From Saccharopolyspora rhizosphaerae (GTDB lineage: Bacteria > Actinomycetota > Actinomycetes > Mycobacteriales > Pseudonocardiaceae): a stretch of 64,000 nucleotides of DNA. Both the position numbers and the translations under genes were made by a program. The stretch is from contig NZ_RSAA01000014.1 of NCBI RefSeq assembly GCF_003931915.1, positions 248,001 to 312,000 of the forward strand, in the 5' to 3' direction. The notes below the pieces were generated by a model, which did no database searches, was not told the DNA's origin, and worked only from the letters and a program-made list of their open reading frames with translations. Shown here in pieces: positions 55,012 to 63,750 of the stretch; the first letter of the stretch is position 1; every line of letters begins with the position of its first letter.

Positions 55012-55058
55012 TTGACCACGCCACACCGCTCACCTAGCGTGGGATATGAGATATCATG
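55012..55058 (+). promoter_or_regulatory. importer promoter with GntR operator (site O1)
   Basis: TTGACC (55012-55017), 17 bases and TAGCGT (55035-55040) form a promoter whose start would fall near 55047. The AT-rich site ATGAGATATCATG at 55046-55058 lies over that start point. Its 11-mer TGAGATATCAT is identical to the one in site O4. Confidence 0.6.
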
Positions 55059-55078: not shown

Positions 55079-56416
55079 ATGCACGATCCCGCCACGTCCA
55101 CGGCCGCCACCGGGCAGGCCACGGGCAAGCGGTCCCAGGTCCGCTGGCTGATGGTCGTCCTGGTCGCCTTGGCGACCGCCATCGCCTACATCGACCGCGC
55201 GAACCTCAGCGTCGCCAGCGATCCGATGCAGCAGGAGCTCCAGTTCTCCGACGAGCTCAAGGGCGTCATGCTGTCGTCGTTCTTCTGGACCTACGCGATC
55301 TTCCAGCTGCCGGGCGGCTGGCTGGTCGACCGCTACGGACCGCGGGTGCTCTACGCGGTGGCCGTGGTGTGGTGGTCGATCGGCACCGCGGCGACGGCTC
55401 TGACCCGGGGTTTCGCCGGAGTGATCGGGTGCAGGCTCGCGCTGGGCGTCGGCGAGGCGCCCGTGCAGTCGGCCAACGCCCGCGTGGTGTCGGAGTGGTT
55501 CCCCCGCAAGGAGCGGGCTTTCGCGTCGTCCCTCTTCGACACGGGCTCGGAGTTCGGCAGCGCGCTGTCGGTTCCGCTGGTGACGTTGCTGATCGCGCTG
55601 GTCGGCTGGCGCGGCTCGTTCCTCGTCACCGGTGCGCTGGGCCTGGTGTGGGTCGCGGTGTGGCTGCTCGTCTACCGCTCACCGCGGAAGCAGAAGTGGG
55701 TCAACCAGGCCGAGATCGACTACATCGAGCGGGGCGGCGGCCGCACCGAGGAGAAGGAGCTCGACGAGGGCGGCAAGCAACCGATGAAGTGGCGGGACCT
55801 GTTCCGCTACTCCACGACGTGGGCGCTGGTGGCCGGCTACACCTGCCGCGGCGTGATCATCTACTTCTTCATCACCTGGTACCCGGACTTCCTGGTCAAC
55901 CAGCAGGGCTTCTCACTGCTGGAACTCGGCCTGTACGGCGCGATCCCGGGCCTGGCGGCGATGGTGGCCAACTGGCTCGGCGGCTTGTTCTCCGACTGGC
56001 TGGTCCGGCGCGGCACCCCGCTGGCGTTGGCGCGCAAGATCCCGCTGGTGGTCGGCATGCTCGGAGCCTCGACGATCGCGCTGGCCTCGATCGCGCCGAA
56101 CCCGGTGTGGGCGCTGGCGTTCCTGACGGTGTCCTACTGCAGCGCGGCGGTGTCCACCGGCGCGCTGCTGTCGCTGCCCGCGGACGTCGCGCCGACGCCG
56201 CGCAACGTGGCGTCGCTGACCGGGGTGCAGAACTTCGGATCGCAGCTCGGCGGCATCATCGGGCCGATCGTGATCGGTTTCCTGCTCGGCACCGGGCAGT
56301 TCGCCTACGTGTGGCCGCTGGTGTTCGCCGGCGCGATGTGCGTGCTGGGGGCCCTCGTCTACGCGTTCGTGGTGAAGGTCAAGCCCCTCGACGAGCAGGC
56401 ACCGATGTTCGGGTGA
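55079..56416 (+). CDS. MFS importer of the anion:cation symporter (ACS) type
   Basis: The 445-residue protein has twelve membrane segments and the ACS-type first-helix region RWLMVVLVALATAIAYIDRA. QLPGGWLVDRYGPRVLYAVA follows. ACS members such as GudP, DgoT or ExuT import glucarate, galactonate or hexuronates with protons. The pairing with a sugar-acid-type dehydratase downstream supports such a substrate; the exact one is unknown. The ATG (MHDPATSTAAT) is chosen; an upstream in-frame start lies within the operator. A convergent GntR gene follows after a 26-base palindrome. Confidence 0.9.
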   Translation: MHDPATSTAATGQATGKRSQVRWLMVVLVALATAIAYIDRANLSVASDPMQQELQFSDELKGVMLSSFFWTYAIFQLPGGWLVDRYGPRVLYAVAVVWWSIGTAATALTRGFAGVIGCRLALGVGEAPVQSANARVVSEWFPRKERAFASSLFDTGSEFGSALSVPLVTLLIALVGWRGSFLVTGALGLVWVAVWLLVYRSPRKQKWVNQAEIDYIERGGGRTEEKELDEGGKQPMKWRDLFRYSTTWALVAGYTCRGVIIYFFITWYPDFLVNQQGFSLLELGLYGAIPGLAAMVANWLGGLFSDWLVRRGTPLALARKIPLVVGMLGASTIALASIAPNPVWALAFLTVSYCSAAVSTGALLSLPADVAPTPRNVASLTGVQNFGSQLGGIIGPIVIGFLLGTGQFAYVWPLVFAGAMCVLGALVYAFVVKVKPLDEQAPMFG

Positions 56417-56422
56417 TCCACG

Positions 56423-56448
56423 ACGGTCCCCTCCGCGGAGGGGACCGT
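56423..56448. terminator. perfect 26-base palindrome between convergent genes
   Basis: ACGGTCCCCTCCG and its complement form an uninterrupted palindrome between the importer and GntR genes, 6 bases from each stop. It likely ends transcription from both sides. Confidence 0.8.
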
Positions 56449-56454
56449 TCTCGT

Positions 56455-57147
56455 TCAGGACTCGGCCTTCTCGGCCGCTTCGAGGTTGGTGAGGGACTTC
56501 TGGATGTGGTCCCGGACGAGGCGTTCGGCTTCGTCCTCGTTGCCGTCGCTGACCGCGGCGAGGATCTCGGCGTGCTCGACGAACTCCTCCCGCCAGGTCG
56601 GCCAGCGGTCCCACAGCAGGTTGACGACACCGAGCGCGGTGAGGTCCTGCAGGTCGTCGAGCTGGTCGACGACCAGGGCGTTGCCGCAGCCGGAGTACAG
56701 CGACCGGTGGAAGCGGCGGTTGGCCATGCTCAACTCGTGGTTTTCGCCCGCGCTGAGCAGTCCGGCGGCCTCGTTGAGCGCGCCCTGAGCACGGTGCACC
56801 ACGTCGGCGGACTCGCAGCGGGTGGTGGTCCTGACGGCCCACGGCTCCAGCAGCAGCCGGACCTCGTAGACCTTGCGGACGTCTTCGAGGGTGAGCGTGC
56901 GGACGGTGATCCCCTTGTTCGGCACCACCGTGACCAGGCCGGTGTGGGCCATGCCGATCAGCGCCTCGCGCACCGGTGTCTTGGACACGCCGAGCAGCTC
57001 CGACAGGCGCCGCTCGACCAACGTCTCCCCGGGGCGCAGCTCACCGGCGAGGATCGCGTTGCGGAGGGAGTCCGCGACCAGGTCGGTGCGGCTGGCAGGC
57101 CCGTTCAGGGGACGCAGCCTGGAAGAGTCACTGGCCAGCTGGGTCAC
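56455..57147 (-). CDS. GntR-family (FCD) transcriptional regulator
   Basis: The 230-residue protein has a winged helix-turn-helix in residues 18-80 (LRNAILAGELRPGETLVERR, LSELLGVSKTPVREALIGM) and an all-helical FCD ligand-binding domain. Metal-site residues lie in NRRFHRSLYSG, EEFVEHAEILAAV and VRDHIQKSL. FCD regulators usually repress and are released by an organic or sugar acid. The GTG start lies 7 bases from a candidate operator in its own promoter. Its probable targets are the importer, the TPP enzyme and the RraA/dehydratase pair, each with a related AT-rich site. Confidence 0.92.
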   Translation of the reverse strand: MTQLASDSSRLRPLNGPASRTDLVADSLRNAILAGELRPGETLVERRLSELLGVSKTPVREALIGMAHTGLVTVVPNKGITVRTLTLEDVRKVYEVRLLLEPWAVRTTTRCESADVVHRAQGALNEAAGLLSAGENHELSMANRRFHRSLYSGCGNALVVDQLDDLQDLTALGVVNLLWDRWPTWREEFVEHAEILAAVSDGNEDEAERLVRDHIQKSLTNLEAAEKAES

Positions 57148-57153
57148 ACCCCC

Positions 57154-57165
57154 GATGATATGTCA
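57154..57165 (-). promoter_or_regulatory. GntR operator at its own gene (site O2)
   Basis: TGACATATCATC on the minus strand has the ATATCAT core found at the other three sites. Its TATCAT could serve as a -10, giving a nearly leaderless message, so binding would block polymerase. Confidence 0.6.
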
Positions 57166-57220
57166 CGGGCGCCCGACACGGCCGGACGACCTGCGGGTTC
57201 CCGACCTGGCGTCCTCACGG

Positions 57221-57233
57221 TGTATGATATACC
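57221..57233 (-). promoter_or_regulatory. GntR operator upstream of the TPP enzyme gene (site O3)
   Basis: Read on the minus strand it is GGTATATCATACA, again with the ATATCAT core; on the plus strand TATGAT could be a -10. It ends 31 bases before the ATG of the TPP enzyme gene. Confidence 0.6.
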
Positions 57234-57264
57234 ACACTGCGAGATCGAATGCTGCGAGGGAACC

Positions 57265-58818
57265 ATGCGCACCGTCGCCCAGACCGTGACCCGCGTGCTC
57301 GCCGACGCGGGAGTCGAACACGGCTTCACCGTGCCCGGCGAGTCGTTCCTGGGCCTGCTCGACGCGTTCACCGGGACACCCGAGCTGACGCTGGTCTCGA
57401 CGCGGCACGAGAGCGGTGCCGCGTTCATGGCCGAAGCGTGCGCCAAGTTGAGCGGGGTGCCCGCGGTGGCGATGGCCAGTCGCGGCCCGGGCGCGACGAA
57501 CCTGTCCATCGGCGTGCACACCGCGCGGCAGGACCACACCCCGATGGTGGTCCTGCTCGGCCAGGTGCCCTCGACCAAGCTGGGCCGCGAGAGCTTCCAG
57601 GAGGTCGACCTCGCGGCCCTGTACGCGCCGCTGGCGAACTGGACGGCGCAGCCCGCCACGGCGGCCGAGGTGCCCGGTCTGGTCGCCGAGGCGCTCGCGC
57701 AGGCCACCGGCCCCCGCCCTGGGCCGGCCGTGGTGGCGGTGCCCAGCGACTTCTGGGACGAGCCCTTCCCCGGGCCGCTCCCGGCCCCGGGTGCCGTCGT
57801 CGCCGAGGAACCGGACGTCGCCGGGGTGGCTGAGCGCCTGGCCGCAGCGCGCAGCCCCGTGGTGATCTCCGGTGCCCGGGATCCCCGCAGCCACCGGGAG
57901 CTCGTCGCCGCAGCCGAGGAGCTCGGACTCGCGGTGTACACGGGTTTCCGGCGGCAGGACTCCTTTCCGGAGGACCACCCCCACTTCGCCGGGCACCTCG
58001 GCCTGGCCGTGCCGGACGCGCAGCTCAAAGCGTTGGAGAACGCCGACGTGGTGCTCACGGTCGGCATGCGGCTCGACGAGGTGACCAGCCAGGGCTTCCG
58101 CTTCCCGCTCCCCGAGCAGGAACACCTCCAGCTGCCGACCTCGGCGCTCGGCGCGCTGCGCGCGACGGCCCCGGCACGGCGGCGCGACTGGTCAGCGGCG
58201 CACGCGGCGGTCACCGAGTTCATGGCACCACCCGAGTTCCCGGCGCGCTCGGCGCTGCACCCGACCGAGGTGGTGCGCGCGCTGCGGCGGCTCGCGCCGC
58301 GCGACGCGGTGGTCACCAACGACGCGGGCAACTTCTCCGGGTTCGCGCACCGCTACTGGTGCTTCACCGAACCCCGCACCCAGCTCGGCCCCTGCAACGG
58401 CGCGATGGGCTACGCGGTCCCCGCCGCCGTGGCCGCCAAGCTCGTCGCTCCGGAGCGCACCGTGCTCGCGATGGTCGGCGACGGCGGCGCTCTGATGACC
58501 GGCCAGGAGGTCGAGACCGCGGTGCGGCACGGGGCTCCCGTGGTCGTGGTGGTGTTCCAGAACGGCCTGTACGGCACGATCGCGCTGCACCAGGTGAAGA
58601 GCAGCCGTGCGATGTCCGCGGTCGACATCGGCGCGGTGGACTTCGCCGGGTGGGCGCGGAGCCTCGGCGCCGCCGGGTACACAGTCGACGCCCGCGAGCA
58701 GCTGGAGCCGGCGATCCGGGCCGCCCTGGGCGAGGACCGGCCGTGCGTGCTGGACGTGCGCACCGATCCTGACGTGCTCACCGCGGACGCGAGGCTAGGG
58801 GACTTCCTGGAGAGCTGA
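57265..58818 (+). CDS. thiamine-pyrophosphate-dependent enzyme (acetolactate synthase-like)
   Basis: The 517-residue protein has the three-domain layout of the POX/AHAS family. The N-terminal Pyr domain has the catalytic Glu in RHESGAAFMAEA. The central domain carries PVVISGARDPRSHRELV, and the PP domain has the cofactor motif GDGGALMTGQEVETAVRHG with FQNGLYGT about 30 residues on. It is shorter than acetolactate synthase (about 560-590 residues) and shows no paired regulatory subunit gene, so a 2-keto-acid decarboxylase or carboligase role in the island's pathway is more likely. The ATG follows GAGGG. Its last 24 bases overlap the convergent dehydrogenase gene. Confidence 0.88.
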   Translation: MRTVAQTVTRVLADAGVEHGFTVPGESFLGLLDAFTGTPELTLVSTRHESGAAFMAEACAKLSGVPAVAMASRGPGATNLSIGVHTARQDHTPMVVLLGQVPSTKLGRESFQEVDLAALYAPLANWTAQPATAAEVPGLVAEALAQATGPRPGPAVVAVPSDFWDEPFPGPLPAPGAVVAEEPDVAGVAERLAAARSPVVISGARDPRSHRELVAAAEELGLAVYTGFRRQDSFPEDHPHFAGHLGLAVPDAQLKALENADVVLTVGMRLDEVTSQGFRFPLPEQEHLQLPTSALGALRATAPARRRDWSAAHAAVTEFMAPPEFPARSALHPTEVVRALRRLAPRDAVVTNDAGNFSGFAHRYWCFTEPRTQLGPCNGAMGYAVPAAVAAKLVAPERTVLAMVGDGGALMTGQEVETAVRHGAPVVVVVFQNGLYGTIALHQVKSSRAMSAVDIGAVDFAGWARSLGAAGYTVDAREQLEPAIRAALGEDRPCVLDVRTDPDVLTADARLGDFLES

Positions 58819-59874
58819 GGTCACCCCGGCGCGCTCGGCGACACCGCGCAGCTGCTCGACGAGCGAGTCGGGCATCGGGATCCCGTTGCGGGAACGGTCC
58901 TCTCGTGCGGCGGCTTGCGGATCTCCCGCCACCAGGACGGGTTCGTCCGGGTTCAGCGGCGGGGTCGCGTGCAGGTGGTCGATGGCGTCGTCGAGGTCGT
59001 CCTCGAACTCGCCCGGTGGCCGGAACCCGCTCGGGTCGAGGGCGAGGAAGAAGTGCCCGATGTTGTGCGGATCCTCAGGTGCGCGGCTGGCCGGGAAGGC
59101 ACCGCCGCAGAGCGTGGCGGCCAGGACGTGTGCCATCACGCTCAGCCCGTAGCCCTTGTGCGAGCCCAGCTCGGGTGTGCCGCCGAGCGGGGTCAGGCCG
59201 CCGACGTCCTCGTGGCGCAGGATGTTCAGGGCCCGGTGCGAGTCGGTCACCGGGCGGGCGTCGGCGTCGACGACCCAGCCTTCGGGCAGCGGGCGTCCCT
59301 GGAAGTCGTAGACCTTGACCTTGTTGACGGCGGCCGTGGTGGTGGCGATGTCGAGCAGGAAGTGCGGGTTGCGCCGGGCCGGTGCGGCGAACGCGATCGG
59401 GTTGGTGGCCAGCACGGGAACCACCGAGCCGGTCGGTGGCGAGGCGGGGAGGTTGGCCGAGCTGGTGACCAACCCGATCAGCCCTCGCCGGGCGGCCATC
59501 TCGGCGTAGTGGCCGGCCGCGCCGAAGTGGTGCGAGTTGACCACCGAGACCACGCCGACGGTTCCGGCACTGGCCTTGTCGATGGCCAGGCGCATGGCCT
59601 GCTCGCTCGCCGGGTGCCCGAGGCCGCCGTGCGCGTCGACCAGCGCGGACGCGGCGTCCTCGCGCACCACGGTCGGTCTCGCGCGCAGGTCGAGCCTGCC
59701 TTGAGCGCGGAACTGCTCGTAGGTCATCAGCATCGACACGCCGTGCGAGTCGATGCCCGCCAAGTCCGTCCCGACCACCACCTCGGCAGTGGTCTCAGCC
59801 AGGTCCTGGTCCATGCCCCACGCCACGAGGACGTCGACCACCAGCTCGCGCACCACGTCCGCAGACACCCGCAC
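58795..59874 (-). CDS. Ldh2-type (malate/L-lactate dehydrogenase family) oxidoreductase
   Basis: The protein of about 359 residues belongs to the NAD(P)-dependent Ldh2/MDH family, which includes ureidoglycolate, 2,3-diketogulonate, sulfolactate and Delta1-piperideine-2-carboxylate enzymes. It has TDLAGIDSHGVSML with the catalytic His, VNSHHFGAAGHYAE, and LATNPIAFAAPA. The late block GSHKGYGLSVMAHVLAATLCGG is also present. The exact substrate is unknown. The start is ambiguous: three GTG codons follow GAGGAGG; the second is used here. It lies downstream of the RraA-like gene on the same strand, separated by the repeat region. Confidence 0.88.
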   Translation of the reverse strand: MRVSADVVRELVVDVLVAWGMDQDLAETTAEVVVGTDLAGIDSHGVSMLMTYEQFRAQGRLDLRARPTVVREDAASALVDAHGGLGHPASEQAMRLAIDKASAGTVGVVSVVNSHHFGAAGHYAEMAARRGLIGLVTSSANLPASPPTGSVVPVLATNPIAFAAPARRNPHFLLDIATTTAAVNKVKVYDFQGRPLPEGWVVDADARPVTDSHRALNILRHEDVGGLTPLGGTPELGSHKGYGLSVMAHVLAATLCGGAFPASRAPEDPHNIGHFFLALDPSGFRPPGEFEDDLDDAIDHLHATPPLNPDEPVLVAGDPQAAAREDRSRNGIPMPDSLVEQLRGVAERAGVTSALQEVP

Positions 59875-59965
59875 CACGCCTCCTCACCTCCGCACCACAG
59901 CGGAGAACATCCAGGGTTGTTCAGAACGCAGCGGAGGTCACCGTCTTCAGCTGTGGCACCAACCA

Positions 59966-60103
59966 GCACCGCCGCAGATCCAGACGGCCCGCGGCGGCAG
60001 CCGCATCTTCAAGTGAGGGACTCACCTCGCACCGCCGCAGATCCAGACGGCCCGCGGCGGCAGCCGCATCTTCAAGTGAGGGACTCACCTCGCACCGCCG
60101 CAG
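59966..60103. repeat. 63-bp tandem repeat, two full units and a partial third
   Basis: Units 59966-60028 and 60029-60091 are identical; each starts GCACCGCCGCAG and contains CATCTTCAAGTGAGGG. A third start, GCACCGCCGCAG, at 60092 changes into the left end of repeat copy D. The array lies between the RraA-like and dehydrogenase genes. Confidence 0.9.
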
Positions 60104-60220
60104 GTCCGGAGCGGCTCGGGGCGAGTGCGCCGCGACGCCGCGTGTCCAGACATGCTCAAGGAGCGGCGCACGGAGCCACGGAGCCGCCCAGGTCCTGCCA
60201 CCCGCACCGCCACGCAGACC
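60086..60220 (+). repeat. dispersed intergenic repeat, full copy (copy D)
   Basis: The left end is CACCTCGCACCGCCGCAGG, then GGAGCGGCTCGGGGCGAG. The middle has CGCGACGCCGCG, CATGCTCAAGGAG and GGCGCACGGAG. The right end is GGTCCTGCCACCCGCACCG, then CCACGCAGACC. It aligns along its full length with copy B and at both ends with copy C. Confidence 0.65.
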
Positions 60221-60237
60221 AATCTTGTGAACAAGTT

Positions 60238-60981
60238 TCAACGCCAGGGGTTTTCGGTGGCCCACTCCTGGTACGCGACGCGGCTCGTCTCATCCGGCGG
60301 GTAAGTTCCGCGCAGGGGCAGCCCGGATTCCACCCGGGAGAGGACGAACTCCTCGAGGTGCTCCTGGGCAGCGGCGGCCTCGGCGACCTCCTCGACGAGG
60401 TGGCGGGGGATGCACACCACGCCGTCGGCGTCGCCGACGAGCACGTCGCCCGGGTAGACGGCGACCTCGCAGCACCCGATCGGCACCTGCATGTCGACCG
60501 CGTGGTGCTGGATCAGGTTCGTGTTGGCCGACGGGTTCACCGCGAACGTCGGCATCTCCAGGCTCGTGAAGCCGTCGGAGTCGCGCACCGATCCGTCGGT
60601 GACCACGCCCGCGCAACCCCGGTGCAACAGCCGGGTCGCCAGGATGTGGCCGAGGGACGCCGCGCGCTGCTTCCCGCGCGAGTCGATGACCAGCACCTCA
60701 CCGGGGCTCACCGACTCCACGGCCTTGCGCTGCGGGTGGTCGTAGTCCTGGAAGACCGACAGCACGTCGACGTCCTCCCGGGCCGGGATGTAGCGCAACG
60801 TGAAGGCGACACCGACCATGGTGGTCTGGTCGGGGTTCAAGGCGCGCAGGCCTTGCATGAACTGGTTGCGCAGCCCGCGCGAGAGCAGCTGCGTGGTGAT
60901 GGTCGCCGTGCTGGCGTAGCGCAGCGCCCGGACCGTGCCCTCCGGCAGCGGATCGGAAGCCGTGACCGCGGTGTCCACCAT
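60238..60981 (-). CDS. RraA-like / HMG-aldolase-family protein
   Basis: The 247-residue protein has the RraA-fold core ESVSPGEVLVIDSRGKQRAA, GHILATRLLHRGCAGVVTDG and VRDSDG (Arg133, Asp134). The late motif PGDVLVGDADGVVCIPRHL follows. Members act as metal-dependent 4-hydroxy-4-methyl-2-oxoglutarate/oxaloacetate aldolases or as RNase E regulators. In a sugar-acid island an aldolase or decarboxylase role is more likely. It is longer than E. coli RraA (161 residues) but normal for the catabolic group. The ATG follows AAGGGG. It is divergent from the dehydratase across site O4. Confidence 0.85.
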   Translation of the reverse strand: MVDTAVTASDPLPEGTVRALRYASTATITTQLLSRGLRNQFMQGLRALNPDQTTMVGVAFTLRYIPAREDVDVLSVFQDYDHPQRKAVESVSPGEVLVIDSRGKQRAASLGHILATRLLHRGCAGVVTDGSVRDSDGFTSLEMPTFAVNPSANTNLIQHHAVDMQVPIGCCEVAVYPGDVLVGDADGVVCIPRHLVEEVAEAAAAQEHLEEFVLSRVESGLPLRGTYPPDETSRVAYQEWATENPWR

Positions 60982-61008
60982 CTTCGCCCCTTCGCATCGT
61001 CGGAGGTC

Positions 61009-61024
61009 TGAGATATCATATACC
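61009..61024. promoter_or_regulatory. GntR operator in the shared RraA/dehydratase promoter region (site O4)
   Basis: TGAGATATCATATACC; its first 11 bases are identical to site O1 and the other half reads GGTATATGATAT on the minus strand, like site O3. TATCAT (plus) and TATGAT (minus) could both act as -10 elements, so one bound repressor could silence both directions. Confidence 0.65.
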
Positions 61025-61101
61025 GCGAGGCAAGGTCGCGGCCCGCGATCGCCAGCCAAGACGCCCGAACAGCGAAGTTCCAGGAAGGGAGCGAGCCCGC
61101 C

Positions 61102-62832
61102 ATGTCGCGTCCCCGGCTCACCGCCGAGCAGCTGCGCAGTCACCGCTGGTTCGGCGTGGACACCATGCGCTCGTTCGGGCACAAGTCCCGCGCCAAGCAG
61201 ATGGGCTACGACGCTGAGGACTACTCCGGCAAGCCCGTGATCGGGATCGTCAACACCTGGAGCGACATCAACCCGTGCCACACGCACTTCCGCGAGCGGG
61301 TGGCCGACGTCAAGCGCGGGGTGCACCAGGCGGGCGGGTTCCCGCTGGAACTGCCGGCGATGTCGCTGTCGGAGCCGTTCCAGAAGCCGACCACGATGCT
61401 CTACCGGAACATGCTCGCAATGGAGACCGAGGAGCTGCTGCGCTCCTACCCGGTCGACGGCTGCGTGCTGATGGGCGGCTGCGACAAGACCACGCCAGGC
61501 CTGATCATGGGCGCCACCAGCGTCGACGTGCCGTCGCTCTTCCTGCCCGCCGGACCGATGCTCAAGGGGCGCTGGAAAGGCGTGACCTTGGGCAGCGGGT
61601 CGGACACCTGGAAGTACTGGGCGCAGCGCCGCGCCGGCACCCTCGGCGAGCGGGAGTGGGGCGAGATCGAGGACGGCATCGCCCGCTCCCCCGGGCACTG
61701 CATGACGATGGGCACCGCCTCGACGATGACCGCGGCGGCCGAGGCGCTCGGCCTGGTGCTCAGCGGCGGCTCGTCGATCCCGGCGGCGTTCTCCCACCAC
61801 CCGCAGCTGGCGGTGGCGACCGGGCGCCGGATCGTCGACCTCGTCTGGGAGGACTTCAGGCCGCGCGAGATCTTGACCCGGGAGGCGTTCGAGAACGCCG
61901 TCGCGGTGGTGATGGCCATGGGCGGTTCGACGAACGCGGTGATCCACCTGGTCGCGATGGCCGGGCGCGCGGAGGTCGACCTCCCGCTGGAGGTCTTCGA
62001 CGACCTGTCCCGCCGGGTCCCGGCGCTGGCCAACATCCGGCCGTCCGGTGAGTACCTGATGGAGGACTTCCACGACGCGGGCGGCTTGCGCGGGCTGATG
62101 GCCGAGCTCGGCGAGCTGCTGCACCGGGACGCGATCACGGTGACCGGCCGGACCCTCGGGGACGACCTCGACGGCGCCGAGGTGCACGACACCGACGTGA
62201 TCCGCCGCCGCGACAACCCGCTGTCGGAGCAGGGCGGGCTGGCGGTGCTGCGCGGGTCGCTGGCACCCGACGGTTGCGTGGTCAAGACCAGCGCGGCCAG
62301 CCCGGGCCTGCTGCAGCACGCGGGCAGGGCCGTGGTCTTCGACTCCTACGAGGACATGGAGGAGCGCATCGACGCCGAAGACCTCGACGTCGACGAGAAC
62401 TCGGTGCTGGTCCTGCGCGGTGCCGGGCCGCTCGGCGGTCCGGGCATGCCGGAGTGGGGGATGCTGCCGATCCCGAAGAAGTTGCTGCAACGCGGGATCA
62501 CCGACATGGTCCGGATCTCCGACGCGCGGATGAGCGGCACCAGCTACGGCACCTGCGTGCTGCACGTGGCACCGGAGTCGTACGCGGGCGGGCCGCTCGC
62601 GCTGGTCCGCGACGGCGACCTGGTCGAGCTCGACGTGCCCGGCCGGCGGCTCGACCTGCGCGTCGACGCCGAGGAGCTGGAGCGCAGGCGCGCCGAGTGG
62701 AAGCGGCCGGAACCGACCTTCGCGCGCGGTTACGGCAAGTTGTTCGCCAAGCACATCACCCAGGCCGACAAGGGCTGCGACTTCGACTTCCTCGAGGGTG
62801 CAGGCGGCGCGCCCGAACCGGCCATCCACTGA
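61102..62832 (+). CDS. IlvD/Edd-family sugar-acid (pentonate-type) dehydratase
   Basis: The 576-residue protein is an iron-sulfur dehydratase. It has cluster ligands Cys59 (SDINPCHTHF), Cys127 (MGGCDKTTPG) and Cys200 (SPGHCMTMG). These are the same positions I recall for the [2Fe-2S] L-arabinonate dehydratase of Rhizobium. DARMSGTSYGT near residue 478 holds the likely base Ser478. It should turn an aldonic acid into a 2-keto-3-deoxy acid. True IlvD acts in valine and isoleucine synthesis and aligns differently at GHKSRAKQMGYD. The ATG follows GAGCGAG; a DHDPS-type gene follows by 15 bases. Confidence 0.9.
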   Translation: MSRPRLTAEQLRSHRWFGVDTMRSFGHKSRAKQMGYDAEDYSGKPVIGIVNTWSDINPCHTHFRERVADVKRGVHQAGGFPLELPAMSLSEPFQKPTTMLYRNMLAMETEELLRSYPVDGCVLMGGCDKTTPGLIMGATSVDVPSLFLPAGPMLKGRWKGVTLGSGSDTWKYWAQRRAGTLGEREWGEIEDGIARSPGHCMTMGTASTMTAAAEALGLVLSGGSSIPAAFSHHPQLAVATGRRIVDLVWEDFRPREILTREAFENAVAVVMAMGGSTNAVIHLVAMAGRAEVDLPLEVFDDLSRRVPALANIRPSGEYLMEDFHDAGGLRGLMAELGELLHRDAITVTGRTLGDDLDGAEVHDTDVIRRRDNPLSEQGGLAVLRGSLAPDGCVVKTSAASPGLLQHAGRAVVFDSYEDMEERIDAEDLDVDENSVLVLRGAGPLGGPGMPEWGMLPIPKKLLQRGITDMVRISDARMSGTSYGTCVLHVAPESYAGGPLALVRDGDLVELDVPGRRLDLRVDAEELERRRAEWKRPEPTFARGYGKLFAKHITQADKGCDFDFLEGAGGAPEPAIH

Positions 62833-62847
62833 TCGAGCGGAGGAGCG

Positions 62848-63750
62848 ATGCCCACCAGCGTCGAAGCGCTGCACGGGGTCACCGCGATCACCGTGACCCC
62901 CTTCGACGGCACGGTCGCCCCGGACTGGCCCGGTTACGAGGCGGTCGTGGCGCGGATGGCCGAGGCCGGGGTGCAGGTGATCACACCCAACGGCAACACC
63001 AGCGAGTTCTACGCGCTGTCCCGCGACGAGTGGCAGCGCGCCAACGAGGTGACCGCGGCCGCGGCGGGTGGTTCGGTGGTGATGCCGGGCATCGGCTACG
63101 ACATCGCCACGGCCCAGGACATGGCGGTGGCGGTTCAGCAGCTCGGTGCGTCGCTGGCGATGCTGCACCAGCCGGTGCACCCCCACCAGTCGGTGGCGGG
63201 GTGGGTGGCTTACAACCGCCAGATCGCGCAGTCCGCGCCCGGTCTCGCTTTCGTGCTCTACGTCAAGGACCCCCGCGTTGGCGCCGACGCGCTGGGCGCG
63301 TTGTTCGACGCCTGCCCGAACGTGGTCGGCGTGAAGTACGCGGTGGCCGACCCGCCGCGATTCGGCGAGCTTTGCGCCACGCTGGGCGAAGACCGGGTCG
63401 CCTGGTCGTGCGGGTTGGCCGAGCGCTGGGCACCGGCGTTCTGGCCGCTGGGCGCGGCCGGGTTCACCTCGGGCGGGGTCAACGTGGCCCCGAAGCTCTC
63501 GCTCGACTACCTCGCCGCCCTGCGTGCGGGCGATCAGGCCCGCGTCCAGCGGTTGTGGTCGCTCATCGCTCCGTTCGAGGAGATGCGCGCCGCGGACGCC
63601 ACCGCCTGCAACGTCGCGGTGGTCAAGGAGGCGCTGGCGCAGCAGGGCCTGTGCGGGGCGGGCGTGCGGCCACCGGCCGGTGTCCTGTCCCCGCAACAGC
63701 GGGAACAGGTCACCGGCATCCTGGCTTCCTGGTCCGAGGCCGGTTATTGA
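62848..63750 (+). CDS. DHDPS/NAL-family lyase or dehydratase
   Basis: The 300-residue TIM-barrel protein has the Schiff-base Lys163 (VVGVKYAV) and the catalytic Tyr138 (FVLYVKDPR). In place of the DapA GTTGE loop it has NGNTSEF (residues 48-54). It is therefore not a DapA for lysine. After an aldonic acid dehydratase, a DHDPS member typically either cleaves the 2-keto-3-deoxy acid or dehydrates it (for example to 2-oxoglutarate semialdehyde). Which one happens here cannot be told. The ATG follows GGAGGAG. Its stop overlaps the convergent gene by 7 bases. Confidence 0.88.
   Translation: MPTSVEALHGVTAITVTPFDGTVAPDWPGYEAVVARMAEAGVQVITPNGNTSEFYALSRDEWQRANEVTAAAAGGSVVMPGIGYDIATAQDMAVAVQQLGASLAMLHQPVHPHQSVAGWVAYNRQIAQSAPGLAFVLYVKDPRVGADALGALFDACPNVVGVKYAVADPPRFGELCATLGEDRVAWSCGLAERWAPAFWPLGAAGFTSGGVNVAPKLSLDYLAALRAGDQARVQRLWSLIAPFEEMRAADATACNVAVVKEALAQQGLCGAGVRPPAGVLSPQQREQVTGILASWSEAGY

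Follow-up and report, generated by a model that had tools for sequence, protein, structure and literature searches.

Among the described systems of non-phosphorylative sugar-acid catabolism, the Weimberg-type oxidative L-arabinose pathway (araD, L-2-keto-3-deoxypentonate (L-KDP) dehydratase and 2-ketoglutarate semialdehyde dehydrogenase) is compared here with a seven-gene island of the soil actinobacterium Saccharopolyspora rhizosphaerae. The island lies in a 64,000-nucleotide stretch of contig NZ_RSAA01000014.1 (positions 248,001 to 312,000), which is called the window throughout. An L-arabinonate-type IlvD/EDD dehydratase and a DHDPS-family partner are common to both systems. The island differs in that its DHDPS protein lacks the L-KDP dehydratase residues and no aldehyde dehydrogenase is present, and it adds a thiamine pyrophosphate (TPP)-dependent enzyme, an Ldh2-type oxidoreductase and an RraA-like protein.

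Three further systems are relevant. The Rhodobacterales plasmid clusters of Salipiger sp. CCB-MM3 and Thioclava sp. 'Guangxiensis' carry araD, DHDPS, NADP-dependent aldehyde dehydrogenase (ALDH) and RraA genes, with identities to the island of 60-61% for the dehydratase, 38-39% for the DHDPS clade and 44-47% for RraA. They differ in their aldehyde dehydrogenase, a tripartite tricarboxylate (TTT) transporter and, in one of them, a lactonase-like gene; no TPP or Ldh2 gene is annotated there, and the dehydratase ends in Phe, not His. FlDet of Flavobacterium UMI-01, a 2-keto-3-deoxyglucarate dehydratase/decarboxylase, is likened to the island by family alone, as an RraA-family enzyme of sugar-acid catabolism, and differs in that its substrate is a C6 diacid (PMC8563752). 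The engineered 1,2,4-butanetriol route (arabonate dehydratase with KivD or MdlC) places a TPP decarboxylase directly after the sugar-acid dehydratase, but this route is artificial.

The island is a real, conserved and apparently co-regulated catabolic unit with an undescribed lower part. With modest confidence, it is read here as a variant of non-phosphorylative sugar-acid catabolism in which an accessory regulon under GntR control serves the use of a (2R,3S)-configured C5 or C6 aldonic acid; L-arabinonate, D-galactonate and D-fuconate appear to be the likeliest acids. An earlier sequence-only reading of the window had stated that the set matches no known pathway. In agreement with it, no description of the whole gene set was found in searches of open-licence papers only, which do not establish its absence from print. 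Its view that the set is unusual as a whole holds for the TPP enzyme and Ldh2, of which the TPP enzyme is the better conserved, but not for the dehydratase, the DHDPS clade and RraA, which are known together with an NADP aldehyde dehydrogenase on the two Rhodobacterales plasmids in a Weimberg-type arrangement.

Gene content and conservation

All seven genes are open frames at the positions listed below and belong to the expected Pfam families (MFS_1, GntR+FCD, TPP enzyme N/M/C, Ldh_2, RraA-like, ILVD_EDD N/C and DHDPS); the gene set, the three dehydratase cysteines and the NGNTSEF loop thus stand as first described. The features are as follows.

55047..55057, - strand: GntR operator-like site ATGATATCTCA before the MFS gene; genome-wide pattern match, conserved in L163-L167 (no more than one mismatch)
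55079..56416, + strand: MFS transporter, ACS type; best NCBIfam model TIGR00893 (D-galactonate transporter), 313 of 395 bits, which is below the cut-off
56455..57147, - strand: GntR/FCD transcription factor (Pfam/NCBIfam), probable repressor of the island
57155..57165, + strand: operator-like site ATGATATGTCA before the GntR gene; pattern match and alignments, kept in relatives
57224..57234, + strand: operator-like site ATGATATACCA before the TPP gene; pattern match and alignments, kept in relatives
57265..58818, + strand: TPP-dependent enzyme, 517 aa (Pfam/NCBIfam), with a conserved Glu49
58795..59877, - strand: Ldh2-type NAD(P)-dependent oxidoreductase (Pfam/NCBIfam)
59966..60123: 63-bp tandem repeat, 2.5 copies, in the spacer between RraA and Ldh2
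60238..60981, - strand: RraA-like protein; NCBIfam subfamily PRK08245, 307 bits against a cut-off of 208
61009..61019, - strand: operator-like site ATGATATCTCA in the RraA/IlvD divergent promoter; pattern match and alignments, kept in relatives
61102..62832, + strand: IlvD/EDD sugar-acid dehydratase; over the cut-off of PRK13016 (L-arabinonate dehydratase), with Cys59, Cys127 and Cys200 and last residue His576
62848..63750, + strand: DHDPS-family enzyme of the uncharacterised 3e96/3d0c clade, with Lys163, Tyr138, Ala165 and the NGNTSEF loop

The same seven genes occur in the same order in five other Saccharopolyspora loci (L163-L167), and six of the seven, rearranged, on the Pseudonocardia contig L168, which bears out the co-occurrence that the sequence-only reading had proposed to look for. 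Loci L028, L029 and L030 appear to be L164, L165 and L168 fetched a second time. In the family sample, the TPP gene was detected in 92 of 390 genomes (own genome included), and 40 loci were read of the 91 matches besides the own genome. RraA was present in 14 of these 40, GntR in 14, IlvD in 12, and DHDPS and Ldh2 in 6. Eight further Pseudonocardia loci carry RraA with TPP; on the stretch read, GntR was found in seven of them and IlvD in six, and the TPP gene directly adjoins IlvD in L183, L185, L186, L188 and L190. Pseudonocardia therefore has a smaller version of the island, composed of GntR, RraA, TPP and IlvD with another transporter (an open reading frame (ORF) cluster typed through its members as Nramp-like). 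Based on the content of the 40 loci, the shared core is GntR, RraA, TPP and IlvD, and DHDPS, Ldh2 and the transporter are variable.

Among 22 genomes of the own genus, own genome included, the TPP gene was present at 78% identity or more in six and at 42% in a seventh, and 15 gave no match at E<=1e-100; because of this patchy distribution the island is considered an accessory trait. More widely, the TPP gene was detected in 6 of 396 genomes of the phylum sample and the DHDPS gene in 10 of 249 genomes of the order sample at E<=1e-50 (own genome included in both), and no TPP match was obtained on plasmids at E<=1e-60. Loci of the DHDPS clade were surveyed through the best 80 of at least 527 confirmed, some of which end at contig ends. 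A GntR homologue was found in 64 of these 80, IlvD in 56, RraA in 8, an MR_MLE acid-sugar dehydratase in 6, Ldh2 in 3 and a true TPP homologue in 3, the TPP match of L041 (27% identity) not being counted as an orthologue.

The island forms a single unit amid unrelated genes, bounded by the operator-like site at 55047 and the stop codon of the DHDPS gene at 63750. Upstream lies a UvrD-type helicase gene; downstream, in flanking genome sequence outside the window, a small protein whose start resembles a signal peptide is followed by pyruvate carboxylase (the Pfam families of the helicase and the carboxylase were taken from the orthologous locus L163). Between RraA and Ldh2, a spacer of some 360 bp holds the 63-bp repeat; this spacer has no counterpart in the Saccharopolyspora relatives L028 and L029.

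Operator-like sites and apparent shared regulation

The pattern ATGATATNYCA has four exact matches in the 5.82 Mb genome, all inside the island: just before the MFS, GntR and TPP genes and in the divergent promoter of RraA and IlvD. No fifth exact site was found in the genome, and the pattern read backwards, used as a control, gave no match. ATGATATNYCA replaced a first guess, NTGATATCATN, which had no genome match. Dinucleotide shuffling of the island produced no exact site in 500 rounds, and at a tolerance of one mismatch the island holds 5 sites against a mean of 0.05 (at most 2) in 300 shuffles; since the motif was read off the four island sites, this test is circular for the island itself, and the independent tests are only the lack of further genome sites, the sites of the relatives and those of Pseudonocardia.

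In L163-L167, all 20 corresponding promoters contain the site with at most one mismatch, and 17 of them exactly. Alignments with L028 and L029 revealed the sites as conserved blocks within less conserved promoter DNA. The palindrome TGGTATACCA occurs 18 times in eight Pseudonocardia genomes, 15 times in loci of the TPP/RraA/GntR cluster. Of the other three occurrences, one lies some 30 bp ahead of GntR on a separate, broken contig of genome G882, another directly ahead of a DHDPS homologue (55% identity) that is unlinked in the same genome, and the third between a second RraA-like gene and a GntR-like gene in G880 (L215:2290-3754). The DHDPS gene is thus tied to the regulon in G882 without adjacency. 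Among the 80 DHDPS loci, the palindrome stands before the DHDPS gene in two, both from Kutzneria. Ldh2 has no operator-like site of its own in the island; it is probably read together with RraA, as the two frames overlap or are no more than 40 bp apart in L028 and L029.

Sites confined to the island, their retention in relatives and the Pseudonocardia palindrome together support shared regulation, with one operator-like site before the regulator and before its presumed targets, and the GntR/FCD protein is a probable repressor. A lack of shared regulation had been named in advance as an outcome that would overturn the sequence-only reading; the operator-like sites indicate the opposite.

The sugar-acid dehydratase

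The IlvD protein scored 974 bits with the L-arabinonate dehydratase model PRK13016 (cut-off 882), which places it in the sugar-acid subfamily, and Cys59, Cys127 and Cys200 were confirmed in the translation. His576 is its last residue; a histidine as the final residue marks the sugar-acid dehydratases of the IlvD/EDD family (PMC11316719). Its closest solved relatives are 8ej0 and 5j83, which were reported as PuDHT of Paralcaligenes and the L-arabinonate dehydratase of Rhizobium, respectively (PMC11316719). From the literature, this indicates a C5 or C6 acid of (2R,3S) configuration as the likely substrate (PMC11316719; PMC9314677).

A tree of 45 dehydratases was built from 47 given loci (L081 was unmatched and the fragments L202 and L049 were dropped, leaving 44 and the window). 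In it, the 12 TPP-linked proteins, that of the window included, form one clade without other members (support 100/97). All 12 end in APEPAIH, and 6 of the other 33 end in His (L032, L034, L041, L065, L070 and L212). The clade does not simply follow host kinship, because Lentzea and Crossiella, which belong to the same family, are not in it. The own genome has a second sugar-acid-type paralogue outside the island (contig C4, ~104 kb; L212:6964-8748), which is 53% identical and ends in His.

L-Threonate has the (2R,3S) configuration and was considered as a substrate. It was considered less likely because the L-arabinonate dehydratase of Rhizobium was reported to be inactive on it (PMC11316719); some activity on L-threonate was reported for PuDHT, the nearest solved relative (PMC9314677).

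The DHDPS-family and RraA-like proteins

The DHDPS protein groups with the solved structures 3e96 and 3d0c, both named by family only; no characterised member of this clade was found, in line with the earlier suggestion that the protein may start an undescribed branch. The NGNTSEF loop occupies residues 48-54, and at the places of Tyr138 and of Lys163 and Ala165 in the Schiff-base segment Lys163-Tyr-Ala165, Tyr, Lys and Ala are conserved in all 16 loci read (three of them fetched twice). In the L-KDP dehydratase KdaD, Gln replaces the aldolase Tyr and Glu stands two residues past the Schiff-base Lys (PMC9795676). As Tyr138 and Ala165 occupy these places in the island protein, the known L-KDP dehydratase was ruled out.

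The next characterised relative after 3e96 and 3d0c is KdgD (4ur7), with catalytic Tyr and Lys and a Thr contacting the C6 carboxylate (PMC13398020). Tyr138, Lys163 and Thr51 align with these residues, of which Tyr and Lys are general in the superfamily, and the protein stays below the NCBIfam cut-offs for KdgD (NF002958, 122.7 of 278 bits; TIGR03249, 107 of 374). Judged by its sequence, the protein may catalyse either an aldol cleavage or a dehydration. The same clade occurs in the Rhodobacterales clusters with aldehyde dehydrogenase.

In another setting, L050, L058 and other Streptomyces loci (~4-16 kb) carry GntR-DHDPS-IlvD beside an NAD-epimerase-type protein, a KdgD-subfamily protein and a 394-aa protein without a Pfam match at the cut-off used. 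The NAD-epimerase-type protein is presumably uronate dehydrogenase-like; no gene context was found in a paper on a Streptomyces uronate dehydrogenase. L058 also contains ABC permeases and a pectate lyase, and loci of this type are a pectin-use neighbourhood.

The RraA-like protein passes only the subfamily model PRK08245, a 'hypothetical protein' in NCBIfam, and reaches 88.5 of 179 bits with PRK09262, the equivalog for 4-hydroxy-4-methyl-2-oxoglutarate/4-carboxy-4-hydroxy-2-oxoadipate (HMG/CHA) aldolase. A segment DG[SA]VRD is present in 22 of 24 loci read (three fetched twice), as DGSVRD at residues 129-134 in the window, and its Arg is likely the counterpart of the essential Arg in the enolate site of HMG/CHA aldolase. 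The latter belongs to the class II pyruvate aldolases and also decarboxylates oxaloacetate (PMC5065237), and FlDet dehydrates and decarboxylates 2-keto-3-deoxyglucarate to 2-ketoglutarate semialdehyde (PMC8563752). These two precedents make action of the RraA-like enzyme on a 2-keto-3-deoxy acid plausible.

The TPP-dependent enzyme and Ldh2

Glu49 of the TPP protein, which we take to be the place of the TPP-activating Glu, is kept in all nine aligned rows. The protein reached 304 of 509 bits with the acetolactate synthase model PRK08322 and was also below the cut-offs of the other such models among its best 25. Ldh2 is below the cut-offs of all five equivalog models matched, the best being L-sulfolactate dehydrogenase (204 of 500 bits).

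Genomic context is informative for the TPP enzyme. In L115 (902-13242), its gene stands next to an MR_MLE dehydratase, which is non-homologous to IlvD, with a DctP/DctM TRAP (tripartite ATP-independent periplasmic) transporter, GntR and, nearby, an aldehyde dehydrogenase. Of 45 TPP loci, 15 contain an ORF cluster of which one member was typed as Fe-alcohol dehydrogenase. That two unrelated dehydratase families adjoin the TPP group suggests a substrate at or near the dehydratase product, and the neighbouring aldehyde- and alcohol-converting enzymes suggest that an aldehyde is formed; for these reasons decarboxylation is ranked first and carboligation next.

Creatininase-like and amidase-like genes are also present in L115, and L114 and L116-L118 have differing neighbours. 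L176 (8235-16399) is another catabolic set round the TPP enzyme, with GntR-TPP, two Amidohydro_2 proteins, a Rieske protein, an Nramp-like transporter, an FAD oxidoreductase and a TGGTATACCA site.

Proposed pathway and alternatives

In the proposed regulon, the MFS protein would import the aldonic acid, apparently of a plant type, and the IlvD/EDD enzyme would form the 2-keto-3-deoxy acid from it by dehydration. That intermediate would be the substrate of the RraA-like and DHDPS proteins, as pyruvate aldolase or second dehydratase, and the TPP enzyme would act on a 2-keto acid at the same node; Ldh2 would interconvert 2-hydroxy and 2-keto acids. For the TPP step, decarboxylation to an aldehyde is favoured, if only tentatively. 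The more specific proposal, a naturally occurring decarboxylase (or carboligase) devoted to 2-keto-3-deoxy-aldonates, is doubtful; it would open a further lower branch beside the Dahms aldolase, the Weimberg dehydratase and the 4-dehydrogenase, with the RraA-like protein and the new DHDPS clade as partners.

Several observations weigh against the proposed regulon. Competition of RraA, DHDPS and TPP enzymes for one 2-keto-3-deoxy acid would be uneconomical, and the TPP enzyme may act later or on another keto acid. It is below the cut-off of the best 25 of 57 NCBIfam models matched (top PRK08199, 494 of 539 bits), its solved-structure matches (BbmA protein, acetolactate synthases, pyruvate oxidases and benzoylformate decarboxylases) give no clear favourite, and its AlphaFold model, made from four sequences, has a mean pLDDT (predicted local distance difference test) of 50 and was not used. 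Six of the eight Pseudonocardia genomes have DHDPS homologues (7 matches), with an exact TGGTATACCA site at one only; seven have Ldh2 homologues, two of them close (53%), and none at a listed TGGTATACCA site. Contig L168 has one operator-like site only, with one mismatch. Finally, 26 of the 40 TPP loci, all within L169-L201 (15 from genus g4, probably Amycolatopsis, 10 from g8 and one from g326), have no IlvD, RraA or DHDPS, and the TPP role there may be different or broader. Many of these 26 adjoin the ORF typed through one member as Fe-alcohol dehydrogenase.

A rather improbable alternative is aldol cleavage followed by carboligation: RraA and/or DHDPS would cleave the 2-keto-3-deoxy acid to pyruvate and either glycolaldehyde, glyceraldehyde or lactaldehyde, the TPP enzyme would ligate this aldehyde with a keto-acid-derived acyl unit, and Ldh2 would act on the resulting 2-hydroxy or 2-keto acid. 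The conserved Schiff-base Lys163 and aldolase Tyr138, the putative aldolase Arg of RraA and the top scores of the TPP protein against BbmA and catabolic acetolactate synthases are consistent with it, and it would explain why TPP, RraA and IlvD stay together without DHDPS in Pseudonocardia. However, its product needs further enzymes, none of which is in the island. A weak point against it is that a Lys located near residue 125 in acetolactate synthases is replaced in the window and two Saccharopolyspora proteins, though kept in 6 of 9 aligned rows.

An ordinary Weimberg-type route is less probable still. Here, RraA or DHDPS would dehydrate 2-keto-3-deoxypentonate to 2-ketoglutarate semialdehyde, an unlinked aldehyde dehydrogenase would finish the route, and the TPP enzyme and Ldh2 would serve a second acid under the same regulator. 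The Rhodobacterales loci (L122 and L123), in which araD, the same DHDPS clade, the NADP aldehyde dehydrogenase and RraA stand together, and the formation of this semialdehyde by FlDet (PMC8563752) argue for it. The sequence-only reading had noted that the pathway needs a semialdehyde dehydrogenase that is missing. Indeed, none is encoded among the seven genes by Pfam family, but the need could be met from elsewhere, as the own genome has two homologues of the Rhodobacterales enzyme (47 and 46% identity) outside the island. These are unlinked, and no exact operator site exists outside the island. Moreover, no aldehyde dehydrogenase at E<=1e-20 was detected in any of the 80 DHDPS loci (two queries; some loci cut by contig ends), the DHDPS protein lacks the Gln and Glu reported for L-KDP dehydratase (PMC9795676), and the TPP gene directly adjoins IlvD in the five Pseudonocardia loci named above. 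Chance neighbourhood was ruled out by gene content conserved across two genera and by the shared operator-like sites.

Significance

If the TPP enzyme does use 2-keto-3-deoxy acids, it would supply a natural counterpart of the limiting step in engineered 1,2,4-butanetriol production from arabinose; one report states that no efficient enzyme for this step had been described (PMC10644656). The proposed regulon, if true, would also help to assign functions to the RraA-like subfamily PRK08245 and to the 3e96/3d0c clade of DHDPS proteins, and, being compact, it lends itself to tests in soil bacteria and laboratory E. coli.

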